A stretch of 64,000 nt of DNA, taken from assembly GCA_947034885.2 (NCBI GenBank), contig OX344758.2, forward strand, positions 19,991,067 through 20,055,066. Reading direction: 5' to 3'. Positions 28,564 through 58,182 of the stretch are shown here, piece by piece. The DNA comes from Thuidium tamariscinum. Lineage: Eukaryota; Streptophyta; Bryopsida; Hypnales; Thuidiaceae. The notes beneath the pieces were generated by a model. It did no database searches. It was given only the letters and a program-made list of their open reading frames with translations, and was not told the DNA's origin. Position numbers and translations under genes: made by a program. The stretch's first letter is position 1; every line of letters begins with the position of its first letter.

Positions 28564-29559
28564 GGGTGATTGCAAGAAACACTTATACTATTTTGCATCA
28601 CATTGCATGCTAATTTGTTTTTTGGCCATAACTTTTGTATTTTGGCTCCAATTGATTTAAAATCTATAGAGAAGGTAGTCATAATTATCATAAACTTTCT
28701 CTTGTTCCTTCATGACTTTCAAAAATAGTTTATTATCCAAAAATAGACCCCAATTGAATATCACACTAACTAGTTTGGAGGTTTTTAGTACTATTTAGTA
28801 CACCAAAAAAAAAATTTGAGCTAAAATTTGAATGAGATGGTCTTCTAATAGACTTGTAGCTCCCTATGGAAGGAATTGAAAAAAAAAATTATGTGGTGTA
28901 GATTGTAGAAGTCTATAAAGTGAGCTTCTCTCTACTTGCATTTTGAAAGATATAAAGTATTATTTTAGTAGTTTTTTTGATGAGTGACCATCTCCATAAA
29001 GTTGTTACAAATGGCCACTTTTGATTTGGTGAGTTTACTTCATTTTTCTATTTTTACCTAATTAAATCATCAAAATATGTATTTTCTTGAGTCTTAAGAC
29101 TTTTCTAGTTCTCCTACTTAGAAAAAATTTCTATGCAATTCCTTCCCTTGGTACCTTTGTCTAAATGGTGTATACATTATTTATATTTTTCAAATTTTTC
29201 AAAAATTAATTTTCTAATTTTAAAGTATTGCCAAAAAAGTTATGAAAACCCAACAAATAAGGTAGGTACACCCAAAAGTGCCATGTTCCTAAAAGTGTCA
29301 TTTACAATGCCCATACATTTTCAAAATCAGTCATGTTTGCAAAGTGTAGATGGCACTTTCATAAACAGACTTTGACTGTTAATTACTTTTGCATATTGTA
29401 TCCAAATCCAACGTTCTTTGGTATGTTGGAATATGCTTTCACTTGCCAACAAGATTGCATGAAAATTTAAACAAGCTAATGATAGTAACTAGGCACATTA
29501 TGAATAAGTGGCGCTTTTGGGTATACCCACTTTAGTACAAATGTTTCTTGCAATTACCT
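28564..29559. mobile_element. GGGTC-family TIR element, nested copy
   Basis: Left end GGGTGATTGCAAGAAACACT. The right end, reverse-complemented, is AGGTAATTGCAAGAAACATT. The internal sequence matches the members at 40657 and 56363. A 4-bp target duplication is not convincing here (CAGG versus GGGG). The element itself was later hit by a 270-bp MITE at 29261-29530 close to its right end. Confidence 0.65.
29261..29530. mobile_element. 270-bp MITE with GGTAGGTACACCC ends, copy 1
   Basis: Same family as 41721-41992 and 53598-53873. It has terminal repeats GGTAGGTACACCCAAAAG and an internal sequence with TTGACTGTTAAT, CTTTCACTTGCCAACAAGAT and GGCGCTTTTGGGT. Copies carry an inner small hairpin (ACTGTAGATGG and its complement in the less decayed members). 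It is inserted inside a GGGTC-family element. Confidence 0.75.
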
Positions 29560-37995: not shown

Positions 37996-40900
37996 CTAGG
38001 TGGTTTGATTCCGCAAATACGAAGTCCGATCAGTCCCATGAAGCGCCACTGTCGGATAATTTATATTCAGCAACACCCCATTTCCCAGCCAGCACATTTG
38101 CTCATTGCGGGAGAGAACAGCTCTAGAGCAGTGGCAGTCAAGCGCGTAGGCCTCCTTGCAGCTGGCAGAGGCATTCCCTGTGAGATTCCGGTAGTCACCT
38201 GGATGATTGCAAGAAACACTTATCAACATTACGGAAGTTGTTCTATGGCATATGTATTTCACAAATGATTAAATGAACATGAAAGTTAGAAATAAACTTC
38301 CTATGGCAACAAAAAATGTACTTGAATTATTTCACTTTTTTGCAAAGCTGATCCAATAGGTAAAATTGAATTTTGTAGTCTAGTAAGAAGTACTCAAAGG
38401 CTGAAAATAAAACATGCAACAAATAAAAGTCCAATTGGAAGTGTTTCTTGCAACCGCCTACCTCCCCATGGCATATCAACCCCCGGAAGCTCAAGCATTC
38501 CAACAGGATTAGGAGTGCCAATGTAGGTCCCATTCTCGTTCGGGCAGTCAGCCCGTTGAGATGGGGGCTGACATCCTTTGGCCGTGTTGTTGACGTCGAC
38601 GGGAGTGAACCAGCCTTTGGTTGCAGGATTATCCGACCTTGGACATCGGCAAGTGACGGGCTCCAAAGAATCAAAGAGAGAGACACATTCCGAGTACGGC
38701 CCACACACCCCGAAGACCGTGCATTGGCTACGACTATCAGGCCGGTCAGACACCACCCAATTCGCCACCACTATCCAGCCTTCATTCAAAGTTTGGTTCG
38801 AGGAAACTGTACATTGCCAAATCCTCAAACCTCCATCCAAATCCATCGTGAGTTGCTTCAGCGTTGTATCGTTCACACGGTCTGGGCCCCCTGAAAGAAT
38901 GGCGGTGGGAGGATTGCTGCCGATGTAGAGGTGGCCCAAGGTCTCATGGAAGTAGACGCTATCGACACCCTGGATGGTGTGCGCTGCATACACGTCAGGG
39001 GCGGGGATGTAAGATCCTCCTTTCCAATTGGGGAAAACCTTGGGACTTGTCCAAGAGAGAGCTAGGACTCCCCTTGCGTCCCACCCGAACGAATACGTAT
39101 CATTCACATTTAAAACTGCCGGATCGCCCGTCCTCTGCATAGAAACCAATTCATGGCCTTGGCTACGGTTCATGATCTGCCCAGGAAGCAACGTGTCTGT
39201 GGGGGAACTATCAAGGAAGCTATTCCACACCTCCGTCCCATTTTGATTGTTTAGCACTAGCTTTCCCGTATCTAGCAAGACGACACTTGTGACGTCCTTC
39301 TGTAGAGTCAAATGAAAGATCGTCACACATATTGAAGAATTCATTAGACTGACCAGAGATCAATGCATTCGATCACAATGTAGACGTACAAACAGCAAGC
39401 AGGCAGGAGAATCATCAAATCAGGTAAAAATGCATTTGAAATTGGAATGCAATCATTTGTAATGCGAAATAAGTGTTGGTCCAGAGTTGATTGAGTCTCA
39501 AGTGCGTACATTATCCGTGAAAGTGTTCCAAATGTTGTCCCGTTGCGTGTTCTGGTTCTGGTCGGACAATTCAAGGGATCCATTTGAATGGAACAGCAAG
39601 ACCGCGGCGCTGGAGAGAGGGTAGCTACGATTTGACATCCAGGTGACCACTTGATCGATTCCAGGAATTGCAAATCTGATCATAAGGTAATGGCTTGGGT
39701 TGGCAACTCCTGTACAATGCGCGGGGGATTTGAGAAGAGAAAACTAGATTTAATACTTCAAATCTAATAACTTACGATCAATTACTGATAACGTTTTAAT
39801 AAAGCTTTTATAAGAGGAAGCTAAGTGGAACTTTCAAATAGATTTCAATTATACCTTCAAGTGTAGAATAGCTCAATTTTAGTAGAATGTAGTACATATA
39901 AGAAACATTCAGATCTCAACATTGAGATATTTTCTCTATTATCATCTAAATCTACTAACTTGGCAATGGCACAATATGAGTTCCAAAAAGGAGTGTCTCA
40001 CTAAAACAATGTCATTTTTGACTCATTCAATGTGTGTTAGAAATTATACATTTTGTATTTCAATGAATTTGATGGAAAATTCATGTAAAAGTTGTAATAT
40101 TCCTTCCAAAATACTATTGAATTAGAAAAATTAAAGAATTTTGATATTCCTTTTTATTCCTTCGTTGTAAAATCCGAAACTATCTCAAATTTGAGGCAAA
40201 AGGAACTATCCGGAATACCAATTCATAGAGAAATTGTTTGTAAATATGATAATGAGCTAAAATAATGTTTGAATTATATCTATGTTTAATTTGAACTCTT
40301 AATTTGATGTCTTACTATATTTCTTTATTTATGAGAACTTTTAAAAATCACAAATTTTTATACAATTTAAAATGACTATGAATTCATAACATCTTCTTCT
40401 AAAAACCATATGATATACTTAAATACAAACTTAATAAGGTGCATGCCTATTTTTTTAAATAAAAGACCTTAAATACATAGTCCTTTCACTACTATAATGT
40501 CATCACATGCTGAATATGTTAAATTAGGAAAAAATTCAATTGTTGAATTAGACCTATATAATACATGATTATAGTGTACTAACATATATGCCTTTTATAA
40601 CACCATGTAATTTTTGTAATTTTTCAATATTGTTTTCATTTCTGGAAGGACATTATGGGTCATTGCAAGAAACACCGGTCCTATAATTTTGCATCACAAC
40701 ACGAACCACTTTTTTGTTTTCCACTATACCTTTTGGAGACTAAGTTCAATGAACATGAAATTTTTATTGAACATACCTAACTTGAAGTTTATTAGATCCC
40801 TTATTTTTCAGGAATTAAAAAAAATCATTTTATATTTAAAAAAATATTTTCGTTGAGCTGTCACAAAATTACGTTTATGGTTATCATTACGTTCGCAGTG

Positions 40901-42335
40901 TCTAAATTTAATGATTTGAAGACGAAAATTTCATGGTCTATTTGCATAGGTGTAAAACCTATAAATTCCAAATAAAAATTTAAAAATATGTTTTTTTATG
41001 TCTTCCACATGAGTACAAATTTTTTCCCATGGCATGCAATTTTTGAACATTGATGATGGTTCTAAGATCGTTCTTTTGGTCAAATCTCATCAAAATCAAC
41101 TTTCCTCAAATGGCCAATTTTTAGTCTTTTTTAAAATTGATTTTCCTATTTTTTACAAATAAAAATGTGGAAGTACTAATTTTCATGAGATTTTGCATTC
41201 TGGATTTCCTACTTAGAGATTTTTCCTATGCCTTTCCTTTCTAGGGTACCTTCTTCTTAAAGGTTTATACATGAAACATATTTTCCACTTTTTTTAAAAC
41301 TTGTTTTTCTAATTTTAAAGTACTCCCAAAAACAAAAAAACTAAGTTTGAAAATGCTACGCTTTTTGCACAATGTTTCTTGCAACGACCCTTATTCAAAA
41401 GTCTAGAGAGTCTTGAAAGTGATACCCATATTGTGCCATTGCCCAATTGCCTTTTGTGATTAAGTTTCAAGTAATTTTGATGTGTTGCAAGTTTTACAAG
41501 TTTTTACTATATGATGTCATAATCAGGGTTTGCGATGTCCATATCTTTATCAATGATATTATTATTGTTATTATTGTCCAATTTCAGGCGATCATTAATC
41601 AGTGGGTTTAGCTCTTGTAATACATTCATTTGGCAACAAAAATTCCTAAACATCAATTGCTTGAATTCGCCAATGAAGTACTTAGGTGGTGAACAATCAT
41701 TAGCACTAATACACTGCTAAGGTAGGTACACCCAAAAGCGCCCTGTTCCTAAAAGCACCATCTACAGTGCACATACATTTTTGAAATCAGTCATGTTCAC
41801 AGACTGTAGATGGTGCTTTCAGAAACAGACTTTGATTGTTAATAACTTTTGCATACGGTATCCAAATCCTGCGTTCTTTGGTGAGTTGGAACATGCTTTC
41901 ACTTGCCAACAAGATTACATAAAAATTTGAACTAATTAATAGCAGGAACTAGGCTCAGTATGAATAAGTGGCGCTTTTGGGTGTACCTACCCTATGGCCT
42001 TACAACCTGCATAATCGAAAGCAAGCTTCTGTCCTGTGGTTTAGAAAACTAAGTAAAGAAAGCAACTGCCACAACACTGTGAGTTGTCTCCTGGGAGTAG
42101 AAATACCTGAATATGGATAAGAAAAGATCCCGAACTCAAAATAGGGGTTTGGGGTCGAAACCAATCTGTCTCCAACCATCAGCTGGGTTGCAGTAGCATT
42201 CAAGCTCGTGTAGTTTGCAGACCTCACTAGAGGCACACAGCTCGCCAACATTCCCAGCAATAGGAAGCCAAGCAACCCCCGGCTGTTGCCTCCGTCCGTG
42301 TCGGCCAAGCTGCAAATTAATCGGAATTCAAACAC
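37996..42335 (-). CDS. S-domain (bulb-lectin/PAN) receptor-like protein without kinase
   Basis: Four exons join in phase to 489 residues: 42335-42107, 39709-39510, 39299-38462 and 38198-37996. Order: signal peptide (LLGFLLLGMLASCVPLVRSA), B-type lectin domain (NPYFEFGIFSYPYSG, WMSNRSYPL, LLFHSNGSLEL, VVLLDTGKLVLNNQNG, WNSFLDSSPTDTLLPGQ), S-locus glycoprotein region (QCTVFGVCGPYSECVS, CRCPR), then a PAN/apple-like Cys-rich end (SCKEAYALDCHCSRAV, CWLGNGVLLN). Many N-glycosylation sites. Family members usually sense ligands at the cell surface through a cytoplasmic kinase; here a TAG stops the protein before the membrane helix. Intron 3 is an inserted transposon and intron 1 carries two more. 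A splice acceptor (TTTGCAG) near 42,310 means the true first exon may lie further upstream. Confidence 0.85.
38197..38463 (-). mobile_element. Introner: GGGTC-family MITE forming S-domain intron 3
   Basis: The element spans 38201-38459 (259 bp). Its ends, read inward, are GGATGATTGCAAGAAACACT and AGGCGGTTGCAAGAAACACT, the family terminal repeat. It is flanked by the 4-bp duplication ACCT (+ strand; AGGT on the coding strand) at 38197-38200 and 38460-38463. The intron runs from 38461 (GT of the upstream AGGT) to 38199 (AG of the downstream AGGT), 263 nt. Removing it restores ...PWG-GDYRNLTGN..., a continuous S-domain sequence with a single AGGT. Retention would end the protein after about 20 foreign residues. 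Confidence 0.92.
40657..41390. mobile_element. GGGTC-family TIR element, 734 bp, TSD TTAT
   Basis: Ends GGGTCATTGCAAGAAACACC and (reverse complement of the right end) GGGTCGTTGCAAGAAACATT. A perfect 4-bp duplication TTAT lies at 40653-40656 and 41391-41394. It is inserted in intron 1 of the S-domain gene. Its inverted twin lies at 56988-57719. There is no coding capacity. Confidence 0.9.
41721..41992. mobile_element. 272-bp MITE with GGTAGGTACACCC ends, copy 2
   Basis: Perfect terminal repeat GGTAGGTACACCCAAAAGCG. An internal hairpin comes from CACCATCTACAGT and its complement. It sits in intron 1 of the S-domain gene, within 420 bp of that gene's exon 1 junction. Flanks (CTA/CTA allowing one offset base) suggest a 3-bp duplication as in PIF/Harbinger, but this is not certain. 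Confidence 0.8.
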
Positions 42336-56362: not shown

Positions 56363-58182
56363 GGGTCACTTCAAGAAACACTTCTACTATTTTCACTTAT
56401 ACATTTTTGATGACTAGTTTTTTGGCTATAACTTTTGTGTTCTAGCTTCGAATGGCTCAAAATTTATAGAGAGCACATTCATAACTATTATACATCTTTC
56501 CTAATTTTTGAAGATTTTTCAAAAATATTTTACTATTTTTAAACAGCCCTTGATGCTTTGACACAAATTCCATTGAATGGAGTTTTTAGTACTATTTTGA
56601 ACCGAAAAAAAAGAATTTTTTAAGGTGAAATTTTGAGAGGATTGTCTTCTATTATATTTGTAGCTATCCACAAAATTAATTTTAAAAATAGTTAATTTTG
56701 TGTGGTGTAAAAGTCTACAAAGGGACGTTTTTGCTATCCCTGTGGTGTTTGCGTTTTGAAACTTATAAAACATGATTTTGGTATTCTTTTTTTTCAAATC
56801 TCATCACCAAAAAATCTTCTCAAATGTCCAATTTTCATTTATATTTAAGAAAATAATACCTATTTTTTTTATCAATTTAAACATTGAAGTATCTATTTTC
56901 TTCACCTAGTGAAGAAAAATACAACTTTGACATTTTAATTTGTAAAAAATAGGAAAATCAATTTTAATCAAATATAAAAATTGTCAAGGGTCGTTGCAAG
57001 AAACACCGTCCAAAAAGCGTAGCGTTTTGCAACGTAGTCTTTTTATTTTTGGGAGTACTTTAAAATTGGAAAAACAAGTTTTAAAAAAAGTAAAAAATAT
57101 GTTTCATGTATAAACCTTTAAGAAGAATATACCCTAGAAAGGAAAAGCATAGGAAAAATCTCTAAGTAGGAAATCCAGAAAAGTGCAAAATCTCATGAAA
57201 ATTAGTACTTTGACATTTTAATTTGTAAAAAATAGGAAAATCAATTTTAAGAAAAAATAAAAATTGGCCATTTGAGGAAAGTTGATTTTGATGAGATTTG
57301 ACCAAAAGAAGGATCTTAGAACCATCATCAATGTTCAAAAATTGCGTGCCACGGGAAAAAATTTGTACTCATGTGGAGGATATAAAAAAACATGTTTTTA
57401 GATTTTTATTTGAAATTTATAGGTTTTACACCCATGCAAATAGACCATGAAAGTTTCGTCTTGAAATCATTAAATTTAGACACTGCGAACGTAATGATAA
57501 CTATAAACGTAATTTTGTGACGCTCAATGAAAATGTTTTTTAAATATAAAATGATTTTTTTTAATTTATGAGAAATAAGGGATCTAATAAACTTAAAGTT
57601 AGGTATGTTCAATAAAAATTTCATGTTCATTGGACTTAATCTCCAAAAGTTATTGTAGACAACAAAAAAGTGGTTCTCATTGTGACATGAAATAGGACCG
57701 GTGTTTCTTGCAATGACCCTCAATTTGAGAAGACTTTTTGGTGATGAGATTTGAAGAAAAAGAAATACCAAAATCATGTTTTATAAGTTTTAAAAAGCAA
57801 ACACCATCGAGGTAGCAAAAACATCCCTTTGTGGACTTCTACACCACACAAAATTAACTATTTCTAAAATTCCATTTGTAGATAGCTACAAATATACTGG
57901 AAGACAATCCTCTCAAAATTTCACCTTAAAATTCTTTTTTTTGGATTCAAAATAGTACTAAAAACTCCATTCAATGGAATTTGTGACAAATTAATAAAAT
58001 TGAATTCTAAATATGAAATGAATTTTTTAAATATTTGAAAAATAAGAGTAACAATCTCTATCAATATATCTAGAAAAGATTTTTTTGTTTTTTGCATTGA
58101 GTTTATTATTCAAAAGTTAGAGCCTTATTAAACAAGCCAAAAAAAATGCAACAAATAGTAAAAGTGTTTCATGAATTCACCC
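56363..58182. mobile_element. GGGTC-family element, 1.8 kb with nested insertion
   Basis: Ends GGGTCACTTCAAGAAACACT and (right, reversed) GGGTGAATTCATGAAACACT. TTAC precedes it and TTAT follows, with a further TTAC 8 bp later. The related DUF247 intron at 32.81 kb reads GTTACATGA uninterrupted, so it is the empty site. The two halves are long inverted copies of each other, separated by the nested element at 56988-57719. Confidence 0.75.
56988..57719. mobile_element. GGGTC-family TIR element, 732 bp, TSD TCAA, nested
   Basis: Ends GGGTCGTTGCAAGAAACACC and GGGTCATTGCAAGAAACACC. A perfect 4-bp duplication TCAA lies at 56984-56987 and 57720-57723. The sequence is the inverted copy of 40657-41390. 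Confidence 0.9.

Follow-up and report, generated by a model that had tools for sequence, protein, structure and literature searches.

How does a moss gene come to carry an intron whose borders coincide, base for base, with a transposon and the duplication of its target site? This question is raised by a gene on the minus strand of the window, by which we mean the whole stretch of 64,000 nucleotides that was analyzed. Its recognizable exons are exon 2, which holds the B-lectin part (39510-39709, minus strand), exon 3 (38462-39299, minus strand, 838 bp), and exon 4 (37996-38198, minus strand), which runs to an in-frame TAG at 37996-37998; beyond this TAG lies homologous but diverging tail sequence with a likely membrane span. 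Intron 2 (39300-39509, minus strand) separates exons 2 and 3, and intron 3 (38199-38461, minus strand), a GT...AG intron of 263 bp, separates exons 3 and 4. Intron 1 (39710-42106, minus strand, about 2.4 kb) had its left boundary placed by comparing the sequence with P0001, the closest protein relative (77%). The number given to intron 3 is valid for these recognizable exons, and one more exon upstream is possible.

The window protein has a single Pfam match, which identifies it as a B-lectin protein (PF01453, E 1.6e-12). PF00954, the basis of the S-domain label, is matched by P0003 from Ceratodon purpureus, the nearest named relative (44%, followed by P0004 from Physcomitrium with 41%; both are mosses, which marks the host as a moss), and six of the eight relatives have a precomputed match to it; the window protein and P0001 have none. 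A domain search found no kinase domain in P0001 or P0003, and the match of P0001 to two solved S-receptor kinase chains is confined to its residues 74-231. With respect to the origin of intron 3, we consider it very probable that a transposon insertion with duplication of AGGT made this intron, and that it did so before the gene duplicated into the copies called here C10 (the window copy) and C6.

The borders of intron 3

Read on the plus strand, the locus consists of ACCT (38197-38200), a 259-bp element (38201-38459, strand unassigned), and ACCT again (38460-38463). The coding (minus) strand has GGGGAG at the end of exon 3 and GTGACTACC at the start of exon 4. The AGGT copy at the 5' end of the intron (38460-38463, minus strand) contributes AG as the last two bases of exon 3 and GT as the donor, and the copy at the 3' end (38197-38200, minus strand) contributes AG as the acceptor and GT as the first two bases of exon 4. 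Intron 3 is made up of the element and one AGGT copy, divided between the two intron ends, an arrangement that the AGGT model of intron gain calls for. The terminal inverted repeat (TIR) arms of the element lie at 38201-38221 (plus strand) and, on the donor side, at 38439-38459 (minus strand); their inner 15 bp (38207-38221 and 38439-38453) are 100% complementary, and over the outermost 6 bp the match between the ends is partial. On the coding strand, the former arm reads AAGTGTTTCTTGCAATCATCC immediately 5' of the acceptor AG.

These coordinates agree with the first-pass annotation, which had equated the intron, base for base, with a TIR element of 259 bp and a single copy of its 4-bp duplication. 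Its claim that joining at AG/GT of both AGGT copies restores the frame of PWGGDYRN was reproduced by in silico excision of 38199-38461, which fuses exon 3 (38462-39299) with exon 4 (from 38198) and yields this peptide. Retention, as had also been claimed, would truncate the protein, since 263 is not divisible by 3 and the element has stops in all three frames.

The junction peptide PWGGDY occurs in a paralog, L041, and in five of the six protein relatives examined (P0001, P0002, P0003, P0005, and P0006), the sixth, P0004, having PWGGGY; this comparison covered P0001 to P0006 of the eight relatives, with P0007 and P0008 outside it. P0001, a single frame of 604 residues from contigs of at most 2517 bases, probably comes from a transcript assembly and is therefore uninformative on introns. 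P0006 passes the junction within one frame on a 3116-base contig, and its sequence may be genomic.

In composition, the element (GC 0.32) stands apart from the adjoining exons (0.56 and 0.53). Since its inverted repeat reads TGTTTCTTGCAATCATCC just 5' of the AG, the pyrimidine-rich stretch at this position is brought by the element itself. TTGAT, which we take to be a candidate branch site, lies within the element with its A 25 nt from the intron end, and the donor sequences are GTAGGC in the window copy and GTGGGT in the C6 copy. The predicted fold of the intron RNA pairs its inverted repeats (-58.1 kcal/mol, z -3.23); such a fold follows from the TIRs and carries no weight as evidence for splicing.

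In the mechanism that we propose, a nonautonomous TIR transposon, from a family that makes 4-bp target site duplications (TSDs), would have landed in an AGGT of a coding exon of this moss B-lectin/S-domain-like gene. Duplication of AGGT would have placed AG/GT at both borders, the first copy giving the donor and the second the acceptor, and splicing would take out the element together with one AGGT, exactly restoring the original reading frame. The insertion would have preceded the duplication into C6 and C10 and been retained in both copies. Another origin considered for the insert, a tandemly duplicated piece of exon holding AGGT, is ruled out, the insert being a member of a transposon family and not exon sequence.

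Paralogs and the state of the two copies

The paralog L041 on contig 6 (14499615-14500628; 68% amino acid identity) allows the gain to be compared with an empty site in the same genome. Its single frame of 452 codons runs uninterrupted through the insertion point, where it has TGGGGAGGTGACTAC in place of the window's TGGGGAGGT-element-AGGTGACTAC, so that AGGT stands there once and undivided. A duplicate of the gene, the C6 copy (contig 6, 14458413-14458679; 90% identical), carries the same 263-bp insertion with 26 differences and no gaps; it has AGGT at both insertion borders, and its donor-side end, GGGTGG, is near the family form. The insertion therefore predates the C6/C10 duplication, and if L041 has kept the ancestral state, it would postdate the split from L041. 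Both paralogs fit the earlier proposal that donor GT and acceptor AG come from the duplicated AGGT. Relatives with an unrelated intron at this position would speak for another origin; among the same-genome paralogs, to which this comparison was confined, L041 is without an intron there.

The same empty site would be expected if the transposon had replaced or filled an older intron that L041 subsequently lost. Intron 1 is missing from L041 as well, the exon 2 frame running upstream into YFEFGIF, which means that L041 may have lost introns, and L041 is the sole paralog close enough for a base-level comparison. However, L041 keeps intron 2 (207 bp in this paralog), which lies between the two missing introns, together with an intact exon 2, and is therefore not a retrocopy. 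Its AGGT is exact and undivided, and both borders of the window intron equal the TSD base for base, neither of which suits an older intron. Four further paralogs (L046, L048, L050, and L051; 30% to 34% identity) are matched across the region in single open frames, albeit in weak and gapped local alignments. Taken with the points in its favor, an older intron at this site seems to us most improbable, and we retain the reading in which the insertion itself made intron 3.

As for intron 1, its absence from L041 reflects either a second gain or a loss. Its borders are without the AGGT design, and it holds another copy of the transposon family (40657-41390, 734 bp, TSD TTAT). Over its last 600 bases, C10 and C6 align at 561 bases and with 80 gap columns, and 34% of the aligned bases differ. 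In intron 2 the two copies differ at 16 of 210 positions and in intron 3 at 26 of 263 (8-10%), yet dS is about 0.335.

Were the insertion not spliced, both genes would be transposon-disrupted pseudogenes. The window copy offers some grounds for this reading, with the in-frame TAG after exon 4 and a tail whose dN/dS of 0.57 (p 0.11) is indistinguishable from 1, the neutral value. Against it stands the comparison of the two insertion-sharing copies, in which exons 2-3 have a dN/dS of 0.107 between C10 and C6 and exon 4 has one of 0.333; in exon 4, synonymous and nonsynonymous changes differ significantly (Fisher p 0.005, or 0.007 with other rounding of fractional counts). As both copies carry the insertion, exon 4 has been constrained since their duplication, and from this purifying selection we infer that intron 3 is probably spliced, and spliced in frame. 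In addition, joining the C6 copy at the intron sites gives a frame that is open for 319 codons before the junction and for 160 codons after it. It is thus very unlikely that both genes are pseudogenes left behind by an unspliced insertion.

The constraint is unevenly shared: in exon 4 it comes mainly from C6, and the window copy may be decaying. At 67 sites of exon 4 polarized with P0001 as the outgroup, five of six amino acid changes fall on C10 and one of six on C6; with L041 as the outgroup, the numbers are four and one. In exons 2-3, the polarized changes in C10 and C6 stand at 11 to 5 (P0001 as the outgroup) and 7 to 6 (L041). A conserved cysteine of exon 4 is lost in C10, and the TAG at 37996-37998 stops the C10 frame ahead of the tail, whereas C6 has no stop there. 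For these reasons, function is best supported for the C6 copy; the window copy, with its cysteine lost, may be secreted or decaying.

The transposon family and its other insertions

The 15-bp core of the TIR, TTGCAAGAAACACTT, has 6946 exact copies (3452 + 3494) in the 363-Mb genome, compared with none for the same pattern read backwards, so that its abundance exceeds chance. The family TIR is GGGTGATTGCAAGAAACACTT, with copy ends such as GGGTGATTGCAAGAAACACTTGTCC, and the TSD is 4 bp long. Among 13 full copies sampled on contig 1, from the loci of the first places listed there, 9 have perfect TSDs, 2 have one difference, and 2 have two or three; copies with more than five differences to the 25-base end were excluded, among them one with an exact TSD and another with one difference. 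Eleven of the 13 are 676-745 bp long. In the window, perfect 4-bp TSDs also flank the copy inside intron 1 and one at 56988-57719 (TCAA), and more TIR-like ends occur at 28570, 29553, 52659, and 56369.

The 259-bp element is a member of this dispersed family and has the traits of a miniature inverted-repeat transposable element (MITE), namely, inverted ends, a TSD of constant length, and high copy number. Because it aligns in two parts to longer subfamily copies (to L004, positions 27-175 of the element with 80% and positions 181-225 with 85%), it appears to derive by internal deletion from a subfamily whose copies measure about 830-850 bp, such as L007 and L005 with 831 and 853 bp, respectively, between their TIRs. 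Open frames of at least 130 codons at 66 loci (L003-L038 and L054-L083) lie mostly in the flanks, and inspection by eye revealed no recognizable transposase among them. Plant MITEs are, like this element, short, high-copy, nonautonomous TIR elements, but a TSD of 4 bp is not known to suit any of the five superfamilies with which its length was compared. These five are named, alongside the mention of one special group, in the cited section of PMC12550479.

Does the family make introns elsewhere? Our survey listed every TTGCAAGAAACAC end with AGGT (62) or ACCT (44) at the expected distance, which gave 83 distinct elements, 23 of them with both flanks. A variant pattern added 8 to reach 91, a few having gap bases unlike the family end and thus possibly due to chance, and without the window copy and its duplicate the survey set numbers 89. 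Both flanks were joined and read for 23 of these and one flank for the other 66. None of the 89 AGGT-flanked TIR ends or pairs has coding flanks on the splicing strand; this test covers pattern-matching ends and the AGGT design only and could miss a short exon. Across a joined site, no frame exceeds 82 codons (L123/L145, GC 0.25 and 0.34), the next having 75 (L079), and one-sided runs reach at most 70 codons (L123), followed by 67 (L092/L093) and 57 (L149), compared with 299 + 67 codons and GC values of 0.56 and 0.53 for the window gene; GC in the 200 bp adjoining AGGT is 0.20-0.49 throughout the survey. On the opposite strand, which cannot use AGGT, the longest crossing frame has 99 codons (L094/L095), among the sites joined in one batch of 10.

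One surveyed copy deserves mention for its position. The copy L149/L156 (C5:23404300-23407200, 1234-1769) has AGGT on both sides and lies 207 bp past a probable stop, which ends an open frame of 107 codons with a subthreshold cupin match (E 0.018). It may represent a second transposon-made intron, in this case in a 3' untranslated region (UTR).

This survey bears directly on the suggestion, made in the first-pass annotation, that the element family can create introns de novo in this lineage. That it does so repeatedly we reject for those AGGT-flanked copies that the patterns could list: besides the window copy and its duplicate, the genome-wide search for AGGT/ACCT-flanked TIRs in coding exons found none among the 89 others. 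What speaks for the family as an Introner, the source of many introns in this genome, is that its 4-bp TSD, AT-rich body, and pyrimidine-rich inverted repeat suit such a role, and that the L156 copy sits past a probable stop with AGGT on either side. An Introner family, however, would place many introns in different genes, and with coding flanks at 0 of the 89 surveyed sites we hold this reading to be very improbable. It is also unlikely that a moss family with 4-bp TSDs was preadapted to intron formation and made introns repeatedly, UTRs included (as in L156), and would so constitute the first Introner-like family of land plants; if this were true, the preadaptation would consist of the AGGT-sized duplication, the pyrimidine-rich inverted repeat, and the AT-rich body. 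Since none of the 89 others surveyed has coding flanks, we favor one event followed by gene duplication.

Comparison with known intron gains

Flowering plants also reportedly provide single transposon-derived introns, namely, the Ds intron of maize attributed to Giroux et al. 1994, said to involve a hAT element with an 8-bp TSD, and the rice catalase intron attributed to Iwamoto et al. 1998, said to involve a SINE-like element; like the moss intron these are single land-plant cases, from different elements.

The route that we propose is not itself new. Insertion into AGGT as a proto-splice site, with its duplication, splicing at AG/GT, and an unchanged coding sequence, is set out in the text and Figure 1b of PMC3443670, and intron 3 matches this description. 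The table of that paper gives 35 transposon-insertion events, which come from Oryza, Drosophila, Oikopleura, and Zea, and for none of them does it list an in vivo demonstration. Whereas the cited parts of PMC3443670 present a model, the moss case adds an empty site and a postinsertion duplicate in one genome, with splicing likewise a prediction.

Introners share the nonautonomous design with TIRs and TSDs. According to the cited sections of PMC9860276, some introners are nonautonomous elements with TIRs and TSDs, 4-bp TSDs occur in Chrysochromulina, and in Florenciella both splice sites are co-opted from the insertion site. Introner families yield many introns, in contrast to the one event and its duplicate seen here. 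The same sections of this large survey report no introners in land plants, which accords with one part of the earlier statement that few or no land-plant cases of this design are known; the Zea and Oryza cases tabulated in PMC3443670 tell against the other part. Among the open-access moss matches listed, none has a title that points to a transposon-derived moss intron.

In conclusion, we place intron 3 among the single introns that transposons make by way of AGGT, and not in an Introner family, and what is new here is a polarized moss case with a 4-bp-TSD element, the AGGT mechanism itself having been published already. Recent intron gains of known source are few in land plants, and the AGGT-duplication route has mostly been argued from sequence. 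Here, the gain can be polarized because the element, the duplicated target, the empty site, and the later gene duplicate share one genome. A family this abundant, its TIR copies numbering in the thousands, is equipped to make introns; among its listable AGGT-flanked copies, this insertion alone, shared with its duplicate, lies in coding sequence. Such rarity in coding sequence bears on the absence of introner bursts in land plants.
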